From: Prolixibacteraceae bacterium
GTDB lineage: Bacteria; Bacteroidota; Bacteroidia; Bacteroidales; Prolixibacteraceae
Direction: 5' to 3'
Length of the DNA: 64,000 bases
Assembly (NCBI GenBank): GCA_028683385.1
Contig: JAQUIJ010000021.1
Span: forward strand, 1 to 64,000
Positions within the stretch are counted from its first letter, which is position 1. Each line of letters begins with the position of its first letter. Under the pieces are notes generated by a model that saw nothing but the letters and a program-made list of their open reading frames with translations, searched no databases and had not been told where the DNA came from. Shown in pieces: positions 10,513 through 21,728 of the stretch. The translations under genes and the position numbers were made by a program.

Positions 10513-11937
10513 ATGATAACCAAGCACATTCAGTCGGAAATAATCAGGTATTTAGGGAAAGAGCCAACCAAAGGGCAAGAGGAACTCTCGCTGCGGTTCG
10601 CCGATTTTATTGCCGGATCGGACTTGGATTCTGTATTTCTGCTGAAGGGCTATGCAGGAACGGGTAAAACCACAATGTTGAGTGCACTGGTCGCGACTTT
10701 TACTGCGTTTAAATTCAGGTCGGTTTTGCTCGCGCCAACCGGACGAGCTGCAAAAGTTCTGTCGGGATATACCGGACAAAATGCTTATACCATTCATAAA
10801 AACATCTATCGCCAGCAATCGTCGAGCGACGGATTTGGACGATTTGTGCTGAACAAGAACCTTTTTAAAGACACTTTCTTTATTGTTGACGAAGCTTCGA
10901 TGGTTCCCAATTCAAATGCCGAATCGTCTATTTTTGGCTCCGGACGTTTGCTCGAAGACTTGATTGAATATGTATATTCCGGTTCAAATTGCCGACTCAT
11001 TTTGGTTGGCGATACGGCACAGCTTCCACCGGTTGGGCTCGATATTAGCCCAGCATTGTCGAAAGTGGAACTTGAGTTTTATGATCGGTCAGTTTTCGAA
11101 TATGAGTTGACTGATGTGGTTCGGCAAAATCAAAACTCCGGAATTTTGCACAATGCTACGATGATCCGGAACCTGATTACCGATACCTATTTTTCTCCGG
11201 GTTATTTCCCTCTGGAATTGAACGGTTTTGATGATATTCGCCGAATTGGCGGCGCCGATCTGATTGAAGAGATTTCGACTTGTTACGACCGTTTCGGGCT
11301 GTTTGAGACCATTGTGGTTACCCGATCGAACAAACGTGCCAATAAATTCAACGAAGGAATACGCAGCACGATTTTGTACAAAGAAGCCGACATCTCCGTT
11401 GGCGACCTGATAATGGTGGTGAAGAACAACTATTTCTGGCTCGAAGCGAATGAGAAGATCGATTTTATAGCCAATGGTGACATTGCCGAAATCATTTCGA
11501 TTGGGAAATACGAAGATTTGTATGGTTTCCGGTTTGCCAACGTGAGCCTCCGTTTGATCGACTATCCGGATATTGAATTTGACTGCAAAATTATTTTAGA
11601 TACACTAGCCATTGAATCTGCATCGTTAACCAGCGATCAAAACCGTAAATTATACGATGCTGTTTCAGAAGATTATATGGATATCCGGAGCAAGAAAAAG
11701 CGATGGGAGAAGGTTCGGGAAAATCCGTATTTTAACGCGCTTCAGGTGAAATTTGCGTATGCCGTTACCTGCCACAAGGCGCAGGGCGGACAATGGAAAG
11801 CTGTTTTTGTCGATCAGGGCTACCTGACTGAGGAAATGATCAACATTGAATTTATGCGTTGGTTATATACAGCCTTTACCCGCCCCACGGAAAGATTATA
11901 TCTGGTGAATTTCAATAAAGAGTTTTTTGAGGAGTAG
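10513..11937 (+). CDS. RecD-like ATP-dependent DNA helicase
   Basis: Superfamily 1 helicase resembling exodeoxyribonuclease V alpha (RecD) and related AAA proteins of Bacteroidota. Walker A is GYAGTGKTT (46-54); Walker B is IVDEAS (124-129); LAPTGRAAK (73-81) is motif Ia, and ILVGDTAQLPPV is motif III. The C-terminal UvrD-like domain contains AVTCHKAQGGQW and TAFTRPTERLYLV, the usual motifs V and VI. At 474 residues it is a stand-alone helicase with no RecB or RecC partner nearby. It is monocistronic. The 3' end has been partly copied: the 17 bases at 11917-11933, which encode its last residues, recur exactly at 11988-12004 beyond a hairpin. Confidence 0.85.
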   Translation: MITKHIQSEIIRYLGKEPTKGQEELSLRFADFIAGSDLDSVFLLKGYAGTGKTTMLSALVATFTAFKFRSVLLAPTGRAAKVLSGYTGQNAYTIHKNIYRQQSSSDGFGRFVLNKNLFKDTFFIVDEASMVPNSNAESSIFGSGRLLEDLIEYVYSGSNCRLILVGDTAQLPPVGLDISPALSKVELEFYDRSVFEYELTDVVRQNQNSGILHNATMIRNLITDTYFSPGYFPLELNGFDDIRRIGGADLIEEISTCYDRFGLFETIVVTRSNKRANKFNEGIRSTILYKEADISVGDLIMVVKNNYFWLEANEKIDFIANGDIAEIISIGKYEDLYGFRFANVSLRLIDYPDIEFDCKIILDTLAIESASLTSDQNRKLYDAVSEDYMDIRSKKKRWEKVRENPYFNALQVKFAYAVTCHKAQGGQWKAVFVDQGYLTEEMINIEFMRWLYTAFTRPTERLYLVNFNKEFFEE

Positions 11938-12004
11938 TTGGGCTTATTGAGCGGGTGACTCCAAGTCACCTGCTCAATAAAAACCACAAAGAGTTTTTTG
12001 AGGA
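11917..12004. repeat. Hairpin bracketed by a 17-bp direct repeat
   Basis: The palindrome has 17-base arms, 11944-11960 and 11964-11980, complementary except for one G-T pair, around a CCA loop with the centre GACTCCAAGTC. It is bracketed by two exact copies of AAAGAGTTTTTTGAGGA at 11917-11933 (the end of the helicase gene) and 11988-12004. There is no T tract on either side, so it is a poor intrinsic terminator. A close relative of the hairpin lies at 20684-20720. Confidence 0.7.
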
Positions 12005-12085
12005 ACGTCATCAGGAAACAGTCATTGCTCATTAGGGAAAAGATAGCCAAATTTTTCTAACAATTTTTTTGATAGTCGTTTATAT

Positions 12086-12159: not shown

Positions 12160-15100
12160 ATGAAACCAAAAATCAAACTCTTGTTTACGGTTTTCTTATG
12201 CTCAATTAGCAGTGTTTTAATTGCACAACCAGTTAATATCAATACTGCAAAAGCCATTGCTGAACATCATCTGGCTGCCATTCATGGATCATCACTGAAA
12301 TCAGCAGGAAGCAAAATAAAGAACTTCCAATTTACTTCGGTAAAGGCGACTGTTGAAAATAAGGATACCCTATACTATATCCTGAACGACACCATTAACA
12401 AAGGGTTTGTGATCGTTTCGGCCGATAAGCGTGCCTGGCCAATTCTAGGGTATTCAACCGAAGGAAGTTTCAATGAAAAAAAACAACCCGAAGCCTTCAC
12501 TGCCTGGATGGAAAGCCGGAAGAAGGAAATTGAATCCATCAAAAAGAACAATATTAAACCCGATCAAGAAACAAGCGAATATTGGAATAATTTAAGCCTT
12601 AAAAGTGCGGTAATTGAAACACCATCAGTCGAACCACTTCTCAAGACAAAATGGAACCAAGGCTGTTATTATAATGAATTGTGTCCATCTGACGCCAGAA
12701 GTTTCTATTGTGGCCATACCCCAACTGGCTGTGTTGCGACAGCCATGGCTCAAATTATGAAATATTGGAACTACCCTACCAATGGGAAAGGATCAAATTC
12801 ATACTTAAGTTCAATTTATGGTAAATTTATGGCTGATTTCGGATCAACCACTTACCAATGGAGCCAAATGCCTGATAAACTTACTACTTACAATGATGCA
12901 GTTGCTAAGTTGATGCTTCATTGTGGAATTTCAAATAATATGAGATATGGTCCCAAAGAGTCTGGGGCTTTGATTTCAACAGATAAGTTTGTGAATTACT
13001 TCAATTATTCATCTGAAGCCGAGTATGTCGATAAAAAAGCCTATTTGTATAGTGATTGGGTAAATCTATTGAAAACAGAACTCGATCTGAGGCGCCCGAT
13101 TTATTACTGGGGAACAGACCAACTTTGCGGTGGAGGTCATGTTTTTATTTGCGACGGATATCAAGATATAGATTACTTTCATTTTAACTGGGGATGGGGT
13201 GGTATTGCAGATGGATACTTTTACCTTAATAACTTAAATCCAAACTTAATCTTTTCGTTTTCAACTTTTCAACGTGCTATAATTAAAATATTTCCTGATA
13301 AGATGCCTGATGGCTACAAAGGATTATTCCTCTCTACCAACACAATTGGCGTTGGAAATAAGGGAGGCACTACCGATACAAAAATAATCTCAAGTTCAGA
13401 ATGGTCGGCCTCAACAGATCAATCCTGGTTGAACATTAATTCTGGTTCTGGGGCTATAGGAAGCAATAAGATCTCATTAACAGCCTCTGCAAATCCAACT
13501 ACAAAAGTTCGTAAAGCTATTGTTACGATATCGGCTTTGGGTTTAACACCGAGAACGATTGAAGTAACGCAGTATGGTATTATTGAAACTTCCGCTGGAA
13601 ATCTGAAAACCGTTCTTGGGGGGCAATTATCTTTAATTACACATCTTAGTCTTACCGGTACTATCGATGCTCGCGATTTTAAAACTATGCGTGATGAAAT
13701 GCCTGCATTAACAGATATCGATTTGAGTAATGTTAGGATTGATTCATATACTGGAACTGAAGGAACAATCATTAAAAATTATAGCTGGACATATCCGGCA
13801 AATGCTATTCCAAATTTTGCATTTTTACTTCCAGAGTCGACACTTTCAAAAACCCGGCTTAAATCAATTATTCTTCCTCCCTCGATTACATCTATTAATG
13901 ATTATGCTTTTTTAGGATGTAAAAATTTAACAATTGAATCAATTCCTCCATTAGTAACTTCGATAGGCGATGGCGCTTTTTTAGAATGTAGTTGTTTATC
14001 CTCCTTAATTATTCCTGCAGCCACTGCATCTATTGGAAGTGATGCATTTGAAAGTTTTAAGGGAATAATAATCGTGGACAACAAGAATCCTAATTATTCA
14101 AGCGCAGATGGAGTTTTGTATAATAAAACGCAAACAAGATTGATTCAGTGTCCGATTTCAAAAACTGGAGACGTCACGATTCCTTCAACAGTAACTTCTA
14201 TTAGAAATAATGCCTTTTTTGGTTGTAGCGTCTTAACAAAAGTGATGATTCCATCATCAGTTAAATCAATTGAAGCATATGCGTTTAATAATTGTACCGG
14301 ATTGGCTGCAATTACAATTCCATCATCGATAACATCACTTGGACAAAGAGTATTTGGCGGATTTAAGGGTTCAATCGACGTAGATTCCAACAATCCTAAT
14401 TATTCGAGTTTAGATGGAGTGTTATTTGATAAAAAACAAAACGAATTAATAGAGTGTCCGGTTTCAAAAGCTGGAGTCTATACAATTCCTTCAGCAACTA
14501 CAATGGTCGATGAGGAGGCTTTTCATTCCTGTACAGATATTGCATCTTTAATAATTCCACAATCGGTAAAGAACATTGGTTCTTCTTCTTTTTTTAATTG
14601 TGAAGGCTTAAGTTCTATTTATTTATATACCCCTATACCTCCAAATATTATGAATTCGCCCTTGATTTTTTTTGGTACTGTTGATACATTAAACTGTATT
14701 TTGAATGTTCCTTTGGGTACAAAGTCAATATATCAGGCCAACAAACAGTGGAAGGTTTTCTCGAACATTGTTGAAATGACAGGAGATGGCCTATACGTTT
14801 CGGATAAAAATATTAGTATTGGATTCAGTGGGGGAACAGCCCAGGTAAGCCTTTCTTCAAGCACAAATTGGATAGCCTCTTCTGATCAACCATGGTTAAC
14901 GATAACACCGGGATCAGGTAAAATAGGTAGTAGTTCAATTCTATTTACTGCGAAAGCAAATCCAACCACATCAGGACGTAAAGCTATTGTCACCATATCG
15001 GCAACTGGTTTTGAATCCCAAACAATCGAAGTTATTCAGTACGGTAGTGTTGAAGTTACAGCGGGAAATTTGAAATCTATACTTGGGAGTCAATTGACCA

Positions 15101-16461
15101 ATATTTCAGAACTAACTCTCACGGGAACCATCGATGCCCGTGATTTTAAGACTATGCGAGACTTTATGCCAGCATTAACCTCAATAAATATGAAAGACAT
15201 AGCAATTGTCTCATATTCAGGCACTGATGGCCCCGCTGTTGACTATTTATCTAGCTATCCTTCCAATGAAATTCCTTCGGAGGCTTTTTACAATGGGAGC
15301 ATTAGTGTCGGAAAAGAAACACTTAAATCAATAGTCCTTCCCACTTCGGCAGTTTCAATAGGTAGTTTTGCATTTGGGAGATGTTCAGGTCTAAATTCAA
15401 TAAATATATCCTCTTCTATTACTTCTATCGGGTATCATGCGTTTACATATTTTAAGGGTTTGATGGTTGTTGATGTTGATAATCCCCAATTCTCCTCATT
15501 GGATGGTATACTTTTCAATAAAGATAGATCAACACTGATACAATGTTCCTGTTCGAAAGAGGGAGAGTATATTATCCCATCCTCAGTGAAAATGATTGAA
15601 GCAACTGCGTTCCGCGGATGTAATGTACTATCAAGTATCACTATTCCTTCATCAGTTACTTCGATTGAGGAAGGAACCTTTTCATATTGTACTGGTTTGA
15701 AATCAATAATTATCTCATCTTCTGTTATTTCTATCGGCCGATTTGCCTTTACGGGATGCAATGGATTAACAGCCATAACTGTTTATTCAAAATCTCCTGT
15801 TAATTTAGATAATTCGAGGGATGTTTTTTCGAATGTAAGCCAAAATACTTGCATATTAAATGTACCATATGGCTCTGGATCACTTTATCGTACTGCAAAC
15901 CAATGGAAAGATTTTACAAATATTGTTGAAATGCCGGGCTTAACTCTAAGTACTATGGAAGCCAAAGTGGCTGCCCTAGCAAACAGTACCACCTCGGTTA
16001 CCATCAAAAGTAATGTGGTTTGGACTGCCGATTCTGACCAAGCCTGGCTAACCTTAGATAAGACATCGGGTAGCGGAGACCAAACACTAACTTTTACAGC
16101 CCAGGAAAATGCTTCTGCAGGACAACGTACAGCGATAGTTACTGTTTTGGCGAGCAATGTGCCTCAAACCATTACCGTAATACAGGAGGCAAAAAATACC
16201 ACTGGAATTGACCAGTTATCGATAGACCCTGAATTCATTCTATATCCCAATCCAACAACAGGAAAGATAAAGCTTTTGTTTGATCAGGTTCCTTTAAGCA
16301 GCATATCAGTAACAATAAATGATATTGTCGGGAAGAATTGTTTCAAACAACTGATGCACGATAAAGAATCATGGATCGATTTAAGTGGAAATGTTCCTGG
16401 TATTTACATTATCAAAACAGATCAGGGAAACATTAAAGCGCAAAAAGTGATATTGAAATAG
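12160..16461 (+). CDS. C10 cysteine protease with BACON and BspA-type LRR domains, T9SS cargo
   Basis: Large secreted protein of 1433 residues. Parts in order: signal peptide 1-22; streptopain-type propeptide about 23-150; C10 peptidase domain about 155-380 with catalytic Cys191 in TPTGCVATAMAQ and His327 in CGGGHVFICDGY; BACON domain about 388-472; BspA-type LRR_5 block about 476-885, made of repeats ending in SSVTSIxxxAFxxC-like units; second BACON; second LRR block; third BACON; T9SS type A sorting domain (LYPNPTTGK to the end). Each LRR block opens with GTIDARDFKTMRD. The start is the ATG at 12160: an upstream in-frame TTG exists, but the ATG places a perfect signal peptide at the N terminus and matches the paralogue. 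It probably acts as a surface protease with an adhesin-like tail. Whether the LRR parts bind host, glycan or protein substrate is unknown. Confidence 0.85.
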   Translation: MKPKIKLLFTVFLCSISSVLIAQPVNINTAKAIAEHHLAAIHGSSLKSAGSKIKNFQFTSVKATVENKDTLYYILNDTINKGFVIVSADKRAWPILGYSTEGSFNEKKQPEAFTAWMESRKKEIESIKKNNIKPDQETSEYWNNLSLKSAVIETPSVEPLLKTKWNQGCYYNELCPSDARSFYCGHTPTGCVATAMAQIMKYWNYPTNGKGSNSYLSSIYGKFMADFGSTTYQWSQMPDKLTTYNDAVAKLMLHCGISNNMRYGPKESGALISTDKFVNYFNYSSEAEYVDKKAYLYSDWVNLLKTELDLRRPIYYWGTDQLCGGGHVFICDGYQDIDYFHFNWGWGGIADGYFYLNNLNPNLIFSFSTFQRAIIKIFPDKMPDGYKGLFLSTNTIGVGNKGGTTDTKIISSSEWSASTDQSWLNINSGSGAIGSNKISLTASANPTTKVRKAIVTISALGLTPRTIEVTQYGIIETSAGNLKTVLGGQLSLITHLSLTGTIDARDFKTMRDEMPALTDIDLSNVRIDSYTGTEGTIIKNYSWTYPANAIPNFAFLLPESTLSKTRLKSIILPPSITSINDYAFLGCKNLTIESIPPLVTSIGDGAFLECSCLSSLIIPAATASIGSDAFESFKGIIIVDNKNPNYSSADGVLYNKTQTRLIQCPISKTGDVTIPSTVTSIRNNAFFGCSVLTKVMIPSSVKSIEAYAFNNCTGLAAITIPSSITSLGQRVFGGFKGSIDVDSNNPNYSSLDGVLFDKKQNELIECPVSKAGVYTIPSATTMVDEEAFHSCTDIASLIIPQSVKNIGSSSFFNCEGLSSIYLYTPIPPNIMNSPLIFFGTVDTLNCILNVPLGTKSIYQANKQWKVFSNIVEMTGDGLYVSDKNISIGFSGGTAQVSLSSSTNWIASSDQPWLTITPGSGKIGSSSILFTAKANPTTSGRKAIVTISATGFESQTIEVIQYGSVEVTAGNLKSILGSQLTNISELTLTGTIDARDFKTMRDFMPALTSINMKDIAIVSYSGTDGPAVDYLSSYPSNEIPSEAFYNGSISVGKETLKSIVLPTSAVSIGSFAFGRCSGLNSINISSSITSIGYHAFTYFKGLMVVDVDNPQFSSLDGILFNKDRSTLIQCSCSKEGEYIIPSSVKMIEATAFRGCNVLSSITIPSSVTSIEEGTFSYCTGLKSIIISSSVISIGRFAFTGCNGLTAITVYSKSPVNLDNSRDVFSNVSQNTCILNVPYGSGSLYRTANQWKDFTNIVEMPGLTLSTMEAKVAALANSTTSVTIKSNVVWTADSDQAWLTLDKTSGSGDQTLTFTAQENASAGQRTAIVTVLASNVPQTITVIQEAKNTTGIDQLSIDPEFILYPNPTTGKIKLLFDQVPLSSISVTINDIVGKNCFKQLMHDKESWIDLSGNVPGIYIIKTDQGNIKAQKVILK

Positions 16462-16546
16462 GTTTATTGTTGTTCATATTTTATTGGTCCTAATTTGGAA
16501 GATATTGTACTCGACAAGTGATATAGTTATTTCTTAGAGACATTTT

Positions 16547-19500
16547 ATGAAGCCCAAAATCAAACTCCTTGTTACCGCTTTCCTATGCTCAATTAGCAGC
16601 GTTTTAATTGCCCAACCTGTCGACATCATTACGGCTAAGGCCATTGCCGAAAATCATCTGGCAGCCATTAGTGGGCCATCACTGAAATCGGCAGGAAGCA
16701 AAGGGAAAAATTTTCAATTTACCTCGGTAAAGGCAACTGTTGAAAATAACGATACGCTTTACTATATCCTGAACGATACGATCAATAAGGGGTTTGTGAT
16801 CGTTTCGGCTGACAAGCGTGCATGGCCAATTCTGGGGTATTCAACCGAAGGAAGCTTCAACGAAAAAAAACAGCCAGAAGCCTTTACTGCATGGATGGAA
16901 AACCGGAAAAAAGAAATTGAATCCATCAAAAGGAACAATCTTCAACCTGGTAGTACAACAGTAGCTTCATGGCAAAACCTAAGCCTTAAAAGTGCTTCAA
17001 CAAGTTCAACATCAGTTGAACCCCTTCTGAAGACAAAATGGGGACAAGGCTGTTATTACAACGAGATGTGTCCATCTGATGGTAGGAGTAGCTATTGTGG
17101 TCATGTTCCTACAGGCTGTGTTGCGACAGCCGTGGCTCAAATCATGAAATATTGGAACTACCCAACTAAAGGTAAAGGCTCAAATTCTTATTTAAGTTCA
17201 AGTTATGGTACAATAATGGCTGATTTTGGAGCTACCACTTATCAATGGAGCCAAATGCCGAATGAACTTACAGGTCAGAATGAAGCAGTAGCTACCTTGA
17301 TGTATCATTGTGGGGTTGCTACAAATATGGATTATAGCTTGTGCAGTTCAGCAACCAATTTGTTGCCTAGTGTGATGGTTGATCTTTTCGACTATTCCTC
17401 AAATATTAAGCGCATAAACCGTAAAGATTATACCACGAATGAATGGACTACTCTTTTAAAATCAGAATTAGATCTTAGTCATCCCATATATTACTCAACT
17501 AAACTACCATCCGAGACTTCACATGCCCTTGTATGTGATGGATATCAGGGAGAGGATTTTTTTCATTTTAATTGGGGATGGGAAGGTGCAAATGATGGAT
17601 ACTATTATTTAGAAAGTTTGAATGCTGATTCGCAAACCTTCGATGGCTCCCCAAGCGCCATATTAAAGATAACCCCCAATCATTTACCAGATGGATACAA
17701 AGGGATTATCCTTTCTACCAATACGTTGCTTCTAAATGCCAAAGAAGGTGTTTCAGACCCGGTTCAGGTAACTGTTGCATCAAGTTCCAATTGGACGGCT
17801 ACGAGTAGCCAGTCGTGGCTTAGCTTAAGTTCAGGAACTGGCACTTCAGGTACTTCAATATTAAACCTTCATACTATCGAAAATTCAACAAATCTCGACC
17901 GCATAGCAACAGTAGCCCTTGCTGCTGATGGCTATGCCTCACAACAGATAACAATAAAACAATTTCACAGATATGATGTAACAGCAGGTGGGCTGAGCAA
18001 AATTTTGGGTAATGATTTGACATCGTTAACCAACTTAAGCCTGAAGGGAACCATTGATGCACGCGATTTTAAGACCATGCGCGACCTGATGACATCACTG
18101 GAATCTATAGATTTAAGCGAGGCCGCAATTGTTGCTTACTCAGGTGATGAAGGAACTTCCCGAAACAACAATTTTTATTCTGCCAATACTATACCGGAGA
18201 ATGCTTTTGCATTCGGCATAAGGTTTGAAAGTTCGAGACTAAGCTCCTTCATATTTCCAATTTCTACTAAATCAATTGGAGATGCTGCTTTCAATGCTTG
18301 TCTGAGTTTAACCAACTTTTTGCTTCCACCCTCGCTTCAATCAATCGGTAATTCTGTCTTCAATAATTGTATCAGTCTAAGAAGCATTTTTATACCTTCC
18401 TCTGTATTAACAATTGGTAAACAAATCTATTATAATGGGACATCGATAAACGTTGATGGTGATAACCCAAACTATTTGAGCCTCGATGGGGTGCTTTATA
18501 ACAAGACAAAAACAGTACTACTATATTGCCCCAATACCTATAATGGTAATTTTAAAATACCCGAAACTGTTAAAACAATTGGATATAGTGCTTTTACTAA
18601 TTGTATGAAAATCAACTCATTTTCTGTTTCTTCATCAGTAAACACCATTGAAGCCTTGGCTTTTAGTGGTTGTACTGCTTTGACTTCAATTTCTATACCC
18701 TCATCGGTTAATGTGATTGAAGACGCACCATTTTTTGGTTGTAGAAGCTTAACTTCCATTACTGTTGGTAGTCCGACTCCAGTTGATTTAAAAGCATCCA
18801 ATGATGCTTTTTTAACTGTTGATAAAGATAAATGTACACTGAACATACCATACAAAACAGCCGCACTTTACAGGGCTGCTTACCAATGGGGCGATTTTAA
18901 AAATATTGTTGAGGCACAAAATGGGTTTTGTTTAGGAGCTACCGAAGTTAATCTAGCATCGGCAGCCAACAGTACTACTAACATTTCGGTAAAAAGCAAT
19001 GTGGATTGGTCAGCTTCATCCGATCAATCCTGGTTATCTGTAAGTCCGGCATCGGGTACAGGTGATAATACGCTCACTTTAGTCGTACAGGGAAAAACAT
19101 CGGAAGGTTCGCGCATTGCCAAAATAACGGTTTCATCGGTCGGTTTCAAAAATCAGTATGTTACCGTAATACAGGATGGTGCTGCGATTAAAGTTACTGC
19201 AGGAAACCTGGCAAACCTGTTTACGTCTGAAGAATTACGAAACATGACAATGCTCAAACTCGCCGGAACTATTGATGCACGTGATTTTAAGACCATGCGC
19301 GATTTGATGCCCAGACTGACATCGATTGATTTAAGCGCAACAAATATAGTAGCTTATAGTGGGAAAGAAGGAACTTCGCTCCAAGGCAACATTCAATATC
19401 AGGCCAATGTCATACCTGAATCTGCTTTTAATTTGGGCAATTATCAAAATACGAAACTTAGCTCTTTTATTTTTCCTGCTTCGACCAGATCAATTGATGA

Positions 19501-20596
19501 TTATGCTTTTTTGAAATGTGTTGGTCTGACAAGTGTGACTTTATCTTCTTCCCTCCAAAATATTGATTCTTCTGCTTTCTCAGGATGTAAAAATCTATCC
19601 AGTATTTTCATACCATCGTCGGTTACAATCATATATGAGGAAGCTTTCACGGGAACTTCTGCTCTCTTCAATGTGGATACTGCCAACCTAAATTATTCAA
19701 GTTTAGATGGAGTTTTATACAACAAAACCAAAACCACACTTATCCAATACCCTACTTCTAAAACCGGAAGTTTTATCATTCCGGAAACAGTGACTTCGAT
19801 TGGACAAGAAGCTTTCTATTTTTGTTCGAATATAACCTCCGTTATAATCCCATCTTCAGTTAAACAAATACAACGGTTGGCATTTGGGTTATGCAAGAAC
19901 CTATCTTCAATAAGTGTAAGAGGGCTTGTTCCAGCCGTTCTTTATTCCGCAGATGATCCTTTTTGGCTCGTTGATAAATCTACCTGCACGCTTTATGTAC
20001 CTTATGGCACTTCCTCGTTATATAAAGCTGCCAACCAATGGAAAGATTTTACGAACATTGTTGAAATGCCTGACTTAACCTTAAATGCATTAGAAACCAA
20101 AGTGGCGGCCAAAGCGAACAGTACCACCTCGGTTACCATAAAAAGCACAGTTACCTGGACTGCAGTTTCCGACCAAGCTTGGCTAACCATAGATAAGTCA
20201 TCGGGTAGTGGAGATCAAACACTAACTTTTACAGCCCAGGAAAATGCTTCTGCAGGACAACGTACAGCGATAGTTACTGTTTTGGCGACCAATGTGCCTC
20301 AAACCATTACGGTTACCCAAGAGGGGAAAAACATTACCGGGATCGACCAACTATCGATCAACACGGAATTCAAGGTGTATCCGAATCCAACAACCGGAAA
20401 GATATTACTTGTATTTGACAAGGTTCCACAAAATGGAATATCTATAACCGTAAATGATATTATGGGGAAGAGTTTTTTTAAACAGTTGATATACGAAAAG
20501 GAATCGTGGATTGATTTAAGTGGAAATGTTCCGGGTATATACATTATAAAAACAGATCAGAAGAATATCAAAGCACAAAAAGTAATTTTGAAATAG
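16547..20596 (+). CDS. Tandem paralogue: C10 protease-BACON-LRR protein, T9SS cargo
   Basis: Second copy of the same architecture (1349 residues), 85 bp downstream. The signal peptide and propeptide are about nine in ten identical to the first copy. The C10 domain keeps Cys191 (VPTGCVATAVAQ) and a catalytic His326 (ETSHALVCDGY), but the residues before the histidine have changed from GGG to ETS and the segment 255-300 is strongly diverged, so substrate choice may differ. BACON, LRR, BACON, LRR, BACON and the YPNPTTGK sorting domain follow. The LRR blocks also begin with GTIDARDFKTMRD. A 73-base stretch near the 3' end (20216-20288) is identical to 16081-16153 in the first copy, within regions that otherwise differ. 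Transcription may continue from the first gene, as no hairpin separates them. Confidence 0.85.
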   Translation: MKPKIKLLVTAFLCSISSVLIAQPVDIITAKAIAENHLAAISGPSLKSAGSKGKNFQFTSVKATVENNDTLYYILNDTINKGFVIVSADKRAWPILGYSTEGSFNEKKQPEAFTAWMENRKKEIESIKRNNLQPGSTTVASWQNLSLKSASTSSTSVEPLLKTKWGQGCYYNEMCPSDGRSSYCGHVPTGCVATAVAQIMKYWNYPTKGKGSNSYLSSSYGTIMADFGATTYQWSQMPNELTGQNEAVATLMYHCGVATNMDYSLCSSATNLLPSVMVDLFDYSSNIKRINRKDYTTNEWTTLLKSELDLSHPIYYSTKLPSETSHALVCDGYQGEDFFHFNWGWEGANDGYYYLESLNADSQTFDGSPSAILKITPNHLPDGYKGIILSTNTLLLNAKEGVSDPVQVTVASSSNWTATSSQSWLSLSSGTGTSGTSILNLHTIENSTNLDRIATVALAADGYASQQITIKQFHRYDVTAGGLSKILGNDLTSLTNLSLKGTIDARDFKTMRDLMTSLESIDLSEAAIVAYSGDEGTSRNNNFYSANTIPENAFAFGIRFESSRLSSFIFPISTKSIGDAAFNACLSLTNFLLPPSLQSIGNSVFNNCISLRSIFIPSSVLTIGKQIYYNGTSINVDGDNPNYLSLDGVLYNKTKTVLLYCPNTYNGNFKIPETVKTIGYSAFTNCMKINSFSVSSSVNTIEALAFSGCTALTSISIPSSVNVIEDAPFFGCRSLTSITVGSPTPVDLKASNDAFLTVDKDKCTLNIPYKTAALYRAAYQWGDFKNIVEAQNGFCLGATEVNLASAANSTTNISVKSNVDWSASSDQSWLSVSPASGTGDNTLTLVVQGKTSEGSRIAKITVSSVGFKNQYVTVIQDGAAIKVTAGNLANLFTSEELRNMTMLKLAGTIDARDFKTMRDLMPRLTSIDLSATNIVAYSGKEGTSLQGNIQYQANVIPESAFNLGNYQNTKLSSFIFPASTRSIDDYAFLKCVGLTSVTLSSSLQNIDSSAFSGCKNLSSIFIPSSVTIIYEEAFTGTSALFNVDTANLNYSSLDGVLYNKTKTTLIQYPTSKTGSFIIPETVTSIGQEAFYFCSNITSVIIPSSVKQIQRLAFGLCKNLSSISVRGLVPAVLYSADDPFWLVDKSTCTLYVPYGTSSLYKAANQWKDFTNIVEMPDLTLNALETKVAAKANSTTSVTIKSTVTWTAVSDQAWLTIDKSSGSGDQTLTFTAQENASAGQRTAIVTVLATNVPQTITVTQEGKNITGIDQLSINTEFKVYPNPTTGKILLVFDKVPQNGISITVNDIMGKSFFKQLIYEKESWIDLSGNVPGIYIIKTDQKNIKAQKVILK

Positions 20597-20683: not shown

Positions 20684-20720
20684 TTAGGGAGCGGGAGACT
20701 CCAAGTTACCTGCTCACTAA
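20684..20720. repeat. Diverged copy of the 11944-11980 palindrome
   Basis: This 37-base segment matches 11944-11980 at 32 of 37 positions, including the central GACTCCAAGT and TGCTCA. Its arms have several mismatches, so it folds less well. It lies 87 bp past the second C10 gene, as the first copy lies past the helicase gene. GTCATTATTGACCATTAG-like degenerate sequence follows up to the rnz stop. Confidence 0.55.
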
Positions 20721-20783: not shown

Positions 20784-21728
20784 CTATTGACCTTTTTCAT
20801 CCACACGGAATACTTCCCCTTCAGTAATTGCTTCAGTATTCTGAAAAATTGCCTGAGCTTCATTCAGAATAACTGTGTGATCTTTGTACCGGGCAGAGAA
20901 ATGCCCGATAATTAACTTGCCAACATCTGCTTTTAAGGCAGCCCGGGCGGCATCTTCTCCTGTGGAGTGATAGGTGCTTTGTGCTAAATCTTTATTGTCG
21001 TTGGCAAAGGTGGCTTCGTGGTAAAGCAAATCCACGTTCCGAACCGATTCGATATACGATTCGTTATAACGGGTGTCGCTGCAAAAGGCGAATGTTCGTG
21101 CGCGATGTTTATTCGTTGTCAGTTCTGAATGGGAAATAATGCGACCATCGCTGGTAGTAAAATCTCCGCCTTCTTTGATTCGCTGCCGGTCTCGAATGGG
21201 GATTTGGTATTCTTTAATCTTTTCAGGTAATAAATTAGGCAAAGCCGGTTTTTCTTCGAATCGGAATCCACAGGTCGAAATCCGGTGATCTAAAGGAAAC
21301 GAGTACACGTTAACCTTCGAATCTTCATAGATTTTCTGTTCTTTCTTGAAATTCAAAGGGTGAAAGATTATTTTGAAAGGGAGTTCTGTGGCATACAAAA
21401 ACTCAACCTGAGGTGAAAGAAATTTCTGTAATTCAGAATGTGAATAGATGTGCAAATCGTTTTCGCGGCCAATTAGTGCAAAGGTCGAAATGAGCCCGAT
21501 CAATCCAAAAATATGGTCGCCATGAAGGTGGGAAATGAAAATGTGGTTGATTCGGGAGAATCCAATCTTGTATTTCCGCATTTGAGTTTGCGTGCCTTCT
21601 CCGCAATCGATCAAAAAAAACCGCCCGGATACATTAAGTACCTGGGCGGTTGGATATCTGTTTGATGTAGGTAATGCAGAACTTGTTCCGAGAATTGTCA
21701 GTTGAAAAGGCATTGTTATACCTGACAT
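20784..21728 (-). CDS. rnz: Ribonuclease Z
   Basis: Metallo-beta-lactamase-fold endonuclease that trims the 3' end of tRNA precursors. The zinc-binding motif SHLHGDHIFG lies at 66-75, preceded by LGTSSALPT (13-21) and FLIDCGEGTQ (38-47), all typical of RNase Z. FCSDTRY near 216 and IIGHFSARY near 275 supply later metal and substrate motifs. The 314-residue length is that of the short RNase Z form. Two ATG codons are possible: 21728 as given, and 21713, which gives MPFQLTILG and is closer to family N termini. It is 7 bp from the upstream STAS gene and probably co-transcribed with it. Confidence 0.93.
   Translation of the reverse strand: MSGITMPFQLTILGTSSALPTSNRYPTAQVLNVSGRFFLIDCGEGTQTQMRKYKIGFSRINHIFISHLHGDHIFGLIGLISTFALIGRENDLHIYSHSELQKFLSPQVEFLYATELPFKIIFHPLNFKKEQKIYEDSKVNVYSFPLDHRISTCGFRFEEKPALPNLLPEKIKEYQIPIRDRQRIKEGGDFTTSDGRIISHSELTTNKHRARTFAFCSDTRYNESYIESVRNVDLLYHEATFANDNKDLAQSTYHSTGEDAARAALKADVGKLIIGHFSARYKDHTVILNEAQAIFQNTEAITEGEVFRVDEKGQ

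Follow-up and report, generated by a model that had tools for sequence, protein, structure and literature searches.

C10 proteases are familiar mostly as small enzymes of pathogens. Interpain A and streptopain (SpeB) share their protease family and propeptide type with the two proteins described here, but their solved chains of 251-380 aa lack LRR_5 and BACON domains. Among the closest described systems are PrtT and periodontain of Porphyromonas gingivalis, which are also C10 proteases; prtT is reportedly, by the title of a 1995 paper, a protease/hemagglutinin gene. PrtT is a T9SS-tailed protein of 841 aa with a propeptide and a C10 domain of 195 aa, of which two catalytic-domain alleles are known (PMC5266723, accessible sections). 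It resembles our proteins in kind, although it is shorter and is described in those sections without mention of LRR_5 or BACON. The gingipains RgpA and Kgp (C25) are likewise T9SS cysteine proteases having a propeptide and repeated C-terminal adhesin domains, and their catalytic and adhesin variants have been attributed to recombination (same sections of PMC5266723). However, they belong to a different protease family with different adhesin domains, and they vary between strains, whereas the variation reported below lies between two genes of one genome. Finally, Tannerella BspA is a leucine-rich protein with a T9SS tail (PMC5445135, in part) and is comparable to the scaffold of our proteins, but BspA-type LRR proteins with such a tail carry no protease head.

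The locus lies in a window of 64,000 nucleotides, the whole stretch of DNA analysed, from a Prolixibacteraceae bacterium (contig JAQUIJ010000021.1). Profile searches show two neighbouring genes, both on the + strand, which encode the same order of I69 propeptide, C10 protease, BACON, LRR_5, BACON, LRR_5, BACON and T9SS tail. In gene A (12160..16461; 1433 aa) the layout can be written I69-C10-BACON-[cap-LRR_5-BACON]x2-T9SS tail: the I69-type propeptide (residues 25-125; 12232..12534) is followed by the Peptidase_C10 domain with Cys191 and His327 (12652..13221), BACON 1 (13366..13578), LRR cap and LRR_5 block 1 (13594..14607), BACON 2 (14833..15045), LRR cap and LRR_5 block 2 (15061..15765), BACON 3 (15985..16191) and a T9SS type A sorting domain (16234..16458). 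Gene B (16547..20596; 1349 aa) repeats this layout with the propeptide at 16619..16921, the C10 domain with Cys191 and His326 at 17039..17605, BACON 1 at 17759..17965, the first cap and LRR_5 block at 17984..18745, BACON 2 at 18971..19180, the second cap and block at 19199..19900, BACON 3 at 20120..20326 and the sorting domain at 20369..20593. Coordinates, frames and domain order agree throughout with the initial annotation, which had overlooked the LRR cap, a segment of about 73 aa that precedes each LRR_5 block and falls inside the region matching PDB 3sb4. An artefact of frame or start is ruled out: both frames are uninterrupted, the tails are in place and signal peptides, assessed by eye, are present.

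The family matches all exceed the Pfam cut-offs. Peptidase_C10 is matched at 1.1e-57 in A and 1.3e-58 in B (195.9 and 198.9 bits against a cut-off of 26), Inhibitor_I69 at 2.7e-21 and 7.8e-21, LRR_5 at 6.2e-68 and 6.7e-63 (227 and 210.7 bits against 27.7), BACON at 8.2e-34 and 1.8e-26 in three stretches per protein, and Por_Secre_tail at 3.7e-09 and 1.4e-08; besides, TIGR04183 matches both C-termini with 35.6 (A) and 36 (B) bits, the cut-off being 23. The combination of papain-like protease, long repeat scaffold and T9SS tail that had been proposed is thus supported. The LRR_5 repeats are of the BspA type, and the LRR blocks also match PDB 4gt6 and 3sb4, while LRR_EndoS remains below its cut-off (18.5 against 27.9 bits, in B only), so an EndoS-type LRR is not assigned. 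With Pfam matches listed up to an E-value of 0.1, no C25 catalytic domain appears, and the proteins are not assigned to the gingipains. Gene A matches the solved sequences of interpain A and streptopain at 1.2e-42 and 1.1e-43. In the alignment, Cys191, which the initial annotation had correctly named as catalytic, and His327 (A) or His326 (B) are in register with the residues that we take to be catalytic in streptopain. Both residues are retained in all 125 aligned C10 domains, and A and B as dead enzymes are ruled out by this retention. A and B look like secreted C10 proteases of the streptopain type, mounted on an adhesin scaffold built of repeats. They are the sole C10 matches of their genome and hold all nine of its LRR_5 matches. 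The same genome encodes a SprA-type translocon gene, judged on a SprA_N match alone (599 bits), and contains 43 T9SS-tail matches, 39 of them above the cut-off.

The exact domain set was found in none of the papers listed by searches of the open-licence literature, where nothing useful on Prolixibacteraceae proteases or T9SS was found either. The remark that no described system has this layout holds to that extent. Cysteine proteases that combine T9SS export with adhesin domains are, as a kind, well known from gingipains, and PrtT is a C10 protease with a T9SS tail (PMC5266723, in part); the layout represents a rare form of an established design.

What is new here is a mosaic between A and B. 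Their likeness is mainly confined to the ends of the genes, a point that the initial annotation had missed: in a comparison of eight segments, the ends share 76-88% identity but the core only 33-57%, and in A this core extends over about residues 250-1240 (12907..15879, + strand). On the other hand, a related genome has a single gene at this site, and B matches that gene through the core, with 72-88% identity in all eight segments. Synonymous codons show the same step. They are identical in 234 of 349 cases at the ends and in 146 of 371 in the core (0 of 10000 shuffles), so that from mid-protease to the last BACON agreement is only at the chance level of 0.38, and a segment test gave a chi2 of 107.5 (0 of 300 shuffles). 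Because the step is present in synonymous codons, a tighter constraint on the protein at the ends is ruled out as its cause, and so is a simple tandem duplication, since synonymous divergence differs between ends and core. Gene A has the look of a recombinant whose middle part was exchanged. Between the core of B and that of the one-gene relative, dN is well below dS, which indicates a protein under purifying selection.

The pair is bordered on the left by an AAA_30/UvrD-type helicase gene (10513..11937, + strand) and on the right by an RNase Z-like hydrolase gene (20784..21728, - strand), and the site between them is variable. As to conservation in related genomes, a check proposed by the initial annotation, 20 relatives carry both border genes on a single contig, and 19 of these leave too little room between them for a gene of this kind; one relative has the single gene mentioned above, and 16 of 22 genus relatives give no C10 match at all.

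The wider survey of the family gave 97 C10 match rows, of which 76 were window genes or lay in fetched loci, four were added later and 17, which were fragments or had open frames no longer than 541 aa, were left out. The sample of the class comprised 40 regions and six more, with shorter automatic loci for some others. The resulting 129 frames are distinct by C10 core, some being clipped by contig or locus ends; among them, the gene of locus L003 merges with that of L004/L122 and the decayed gene of L199 is counted twice. Locus L194, without a C10 match to our own profile, was excluded, and the ten loci added later (four family rows and six class regions) lie outside the 129. The C10-BACON-LRR_5 architecture, which the initial annotation had proposed to search for, is rare (6 of 129 frames) but not unique, as it is spread over three genera of one family and a shorter C10-LRR_5 design occurs in another bacterial family. 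A C10 head followed by one to six BACON domains and a tail is found in 12 of the 129; such C10-BACON proteins of other Bacteroidia share head, BACON and tail with A and B but lack LRR_5, and some have GEVED. Two of the four relatives with the A/B-type layout (L148 and L150) show no T9SS-tail match, so T9SS export need not accompany this layout. Within the family, open frames with C10 reach 2053 aa, and published candidates span 269-1656 aa (PMC2873492, in part); the initial view of C10 proteases as mostly far shorter is consequently only partly right.

LRR/BACON scaffolds without a protease are common in the same family. The unit was found without C10 in 21 frames of 20 hand-chosen loci (18 from the family, two from the class), an absence that is partly by choice because these loci were picked as places not already known as C10 frames. 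In a tree of 87 hand-selected C10 domains, the six LRR-bearing heads form one side of a branch (support 93/76), and a single change suffices in 92% of the 200 bootstrap trees, so that a single origin for them is likely; the position of A in this whole-domain tree is blurred since A is a mosaic.

The best explanation, which we consider fairly probable, is a protease secreted as a zymogen, which uses the scaffold to hold its protein substrate and whose core can be exchanged. A and B would be pre-pro C10 cysteine proteases that cross the inner membrane via the signal peptide, are kept inactive by the I69 propeptide and use the T9SS to pass the outer membrane. Outside the cell, where the mature protein may be tethered, as initially proposed, or released, the propeptide would be removed and the C10 head would cut proteins; the BACON and LRR_5 repeats that follow the head would bind the substrate or the surface bearing it. 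The scaffold would be the LRR/BACON adhesin that is standard in the family, with a C10 head added to it. In gene A, whose ends match B, the core, from the catalytic-His half of the protease through both LRR blocks, would have a separate history; from this divergence, A and B probably cut or hold different proteins. T9SS-tailed GH44 and GH5 genes near A and B would fit a free-living polymer degrader, and we would favour a role in digesting proteins as food or in loosening them over one directed at a host.

That the protease has a defined target, as initially proposed, is a reasonable expectation from the LRR scaffold. BACON may be a mere spacer, and no binding was seen for the BACON domain of a different enzyme (PMC12853789, accessible part). 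It is possible, although unlikely, that the whole LRR/BACON part is only a stalk, which places a nutritional protease of no particular specificity at a distance from the cell without target recognition. Two related C10 heads of the same genus are in fact mounted on quite different scaffolds of PKD and Ig domains (in one also fn3) and others on BACON, in some cases together with GEVED, as though the nature of the stalk did not matter; a plain stalk, however, is at odds with an LRR_5 block that occurs twice in both A and B, with C10-LRR_5 in at least two designs, and with a scaffold divergence between A and B that far exceeds that of the ends.

A surface protease directed against other cells (prey, competitor or eukaryote), its core varying under an arms race, is considered improbable. 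A mosaic core between like ends and a patchy presence among relatives would suit it, and gingipain K and PrtT vary in a similar way (PMC5266723, in part), but selection between B and the one-gene relative is purifying rather than diversifying, and toxin or immunity families were matched by none of the eight other window genes scanned, one of which had no match of any kind. The cutting of gingipain precursors is presumably done by the gingipains themselves. These precursors are cleaved, and the resulting domains remain associated at the cell surface (PMC5266723, in part), a precedent for a protease that matures the cell's own T9SS cargo; for A and B such a part in T9SS assembly, also suggested initially, is very improbable and was rejected, because most genus relatives have no C10 match and because nearly all of the 20 relatives compared at the site lack room for such a gene.

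The reading of a substrate-holding protease with an exchangeable core might be extended, tentatively and with considerable doubt, to the C10 proteases of the family as modular, recombining targeted proteases, in which constant ends, comprising the secretion and zymogen parts, the first protease half, the final BACON and the sorting tail, flank an exchangeable cassette that combines the substrate-binding protease half with the LRR targeting part. If this is true, one chromosomal site could take up new specificities. A and B show that environmental Bacteroidota have C10 proteases equipped with large scaffolds of repeats. As their ends are alike and their cores differ, they constitute a natural pair in which truncation and comparison could locate the part that sets the targeting of the protease.

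Genes A (12160-16461, forward strand, 1433 aa) and B (16547-20596, forward strand, 1349 aa) follow one another in the window at a distance of 85 bases. In each, Pfam finds a complete C10 protease together with an I69 propeptide, three BACON domains, LRR_5 blocks and, as tail, Por_Secre_tail, every one above its curated cut-off; NCBIfam assigns the tail to T9SS type A. Profiles built from A and B themselves gave the same order in both: propeptide, C10, BACON, cap, LRR_5, BACON, cap, LRR_5, BACON and tail. Ahead of each LRR block stands the cap, some 73 residues long; it falls inside a stretch matching PDB 3sb4 and, in B, inside a weak match to the EndoS LRR profile of Pfam, under the cut-off. 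Cys191 of both proteins, His327 of A and His326 of B align with streptopain, and the catalytic Cys and His are retained in all 125 aligned C10 domains.

The architecture is real and rare. C10 matches were obtained in 44 of 140 family genomes and in 76 of 396 genomes of the class sample, the source genome being included in both counts. Among 129 distinct C10 frames with readable layout, C10-BACON-cap-LRR_5 was found in six: A, B, a gene of the genus relative G021 (965 aa, with a single LRR block), plus one gene apiece from G118, G134 and G136, which belong to two other genera. BACON without LRR_5 is present in 12 frames and neither domain in 111. Pfam bears out C10, I69, BACON and LRR_5 in all four relatives with the layout (L148, L149, L150 and L004, the G021 locus); it matched a T9SS tail in L149 and L004 and none in L148, which has PKD, or L150. 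The near C10 heads L130 and L136, from the same genus as A and B, carry PKD and Ig scaffolds, plus fn3 in L136. A 453-codon frame from a different family of the order (L348 1513-2871) encodes C10 followed by LRR_5, with I69, BACON and tail matches absent. Besides, L199 (G019) holds a C10 gene split into two frames, a decayed copy, and a gene nearly identical to the Prolixibacteraceae gene of L004 occurs on L003, whose contig is assigned to a Methylobacter MAG, probably through mis-binning.

LRR/BACON scaffolds as such are common. The LRR block of B is matched by 39 of the 140 family genomes and by 20 of the 396 in the class sample, and in at least five genomes, among the matches listed in the family search, the match lies inside a C10 frame. 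In 20 selected loci, 21 frames have cap and/or LRR_5 units, most with BACON; none of these gave a C10 or propeptide match, the C10 absence being partly due to the choice of these loci among places outside C10 frames. Nor is it unusual for a C10 gene to have a second one on the same strand within 10 kb: six genomes of the class sample showed this on inspection by eye (G182, G219, G318, G339, G375 and G524).

A and B constitute a variant, not known before, of an already known design. The gingipains RgpA and Kgp are likewise T9SS cysteine proteases bearing adhesin domains, and PrtT is likewise a C10 protease with a T9SS tail; variants in their catalytic and adhesin parts have been attributed to recombination and allelic exchange (PMC5266723). 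A 2010 paper had already remarked on larger C10 proteins whose C-terminal domains were unexplained (PMC2873492). Among the matches listed in a search of titles and abstract starts of open-licence literature, no paper on a C10-BACON-LRR_5 protein was found.

The source genome (5.9 Mb, 54 contigs) yields two C10 matches, which are A and B; all nine LRR_5 matches and six of the seven BACON matches also lie within them. It has a SprA_N match and 43 T9SS-tail matches (39 above the cut-off), and T9SS-tailed GH44, GH5 and CotH proteins are encoded near the pair.

On its left the pair is bordered by a helicase gene (10513-11937), on its right by an RNase Z-like gene (20784-21728). Strong matches to both lie on one contig in 20 of 22 genus relatives searched; in G011 they are on separate contigs and G020 has a strong match to neither. 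Nineteen of the 20 have no more than 1686 bases between the two border genes, which leaves no room for a gene of this kind; the gap sequence was inspected in seven of them (G001, G013, G007, G002, G008, G016 and G006). Only in G021 does the gap reach 5042 bases, with one such gene. Since G001 and G013 are nearer to the source genome by helicase identity (98% and 97%) than G021 (86%), there has been more than one gain of these genes, or loss. The G021 gap also holds an ATPase gene (L004 2017-3159, reverse strand), presumably resembling a DUF4143-type AAA protein, so the gap receives other genes as well.

A palindromic repeat (GAGCGGGTGACT..AGTCACC..GCTC) flanks the pair on both sides (11949-11975 and 20689-20715) and occurs at 18 distinct genomic places with at most three mismatches (control, 0). 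G013, without the proteases, has one copy at the site too. In 11916-12010, the final bases of the helicase gene (AAAGAGTTTTTTGAGGA) recur directly past this hairpin, as though by duplication of a 17-base target; G001 lacks both hairpin and second copy.

The likeness between A and B is mainly confined to their ends. Identity between them is 84% in signal and propeptide and 81% in the first half of C10, falls to 45% in its second half, 33% in BACON1, 57% in the cap and 43% in LRR block 1, and is 88% in the last BACON and 76% in the tail; between B and the G021 gene, the values for the same segments are 81, 77, 77, 72, 88, 84, 84 and 76%. Where A and B encode the same residue, the codon is identical at 234 of 349 positions in the ends vs 146 of 371 in the divergent core (chance level from their codon usage, 0.38), a step attained in none of 10000 shuffles; for B and the G021 gene the core gives 335 of 427 and the ends give 217 of 335. 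At 314 positions where B matches only one of the other two, the best segment was A 250-1268 (chi2 107.5; none of 300 shuffles attained it, the highest reaching 24.7). A 901-1225 contributes no columns to this three-way test, because the G021 gene has only one block, and the break in that region is drawn from the A-B comparison, in which identity climbs from 0.42 (A 1211-1230) to 0.80 (A 1241-1260).

By the identity, codon and segment results, A and B have mosaic histories; the breaks fall close to A residues 250 and 1240, within the protease and ahead of the last BACON. On the three genes compared, the simplest direction would be that A took in a core, and the alternative is an exchange of ends. 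The core of A has no close source, its protease C-half being nearest to G118 and G008 (52%; B, 44%). In the first half of C10, the lower synonymous divergence of A-B (pS 0.46, against 0.72 for B-G021) gives a hint that A and B exchanged sequence there; in the sorting tail A-B divergence is higher (0.59, B-G021 0.45), and in signal and propeptide it is about equal for all three pairs (0.47-0.54). Of the features of the locus, this recombinant core holds the greatest interest, and it was absent from the initial annotation, which reported tandem C10 proteases on a BACON/LRR scaffold.

By what is established for C10 proteases and for the T9SS, the signal peptide of A and B would export the protein and the propeptide would inhibit the protease; the tail would then take it across the outer membrane, and the propeptide would be removed outside. 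If the scaffold acts as BspA-type LRR proteins usually do, it would hold a substrate or surface. BACON may serve just as a spacer (PMC12853789). The scaffold changes along with the protease half that carries the catalytic His, so the targets of A and B are probably different proteins.
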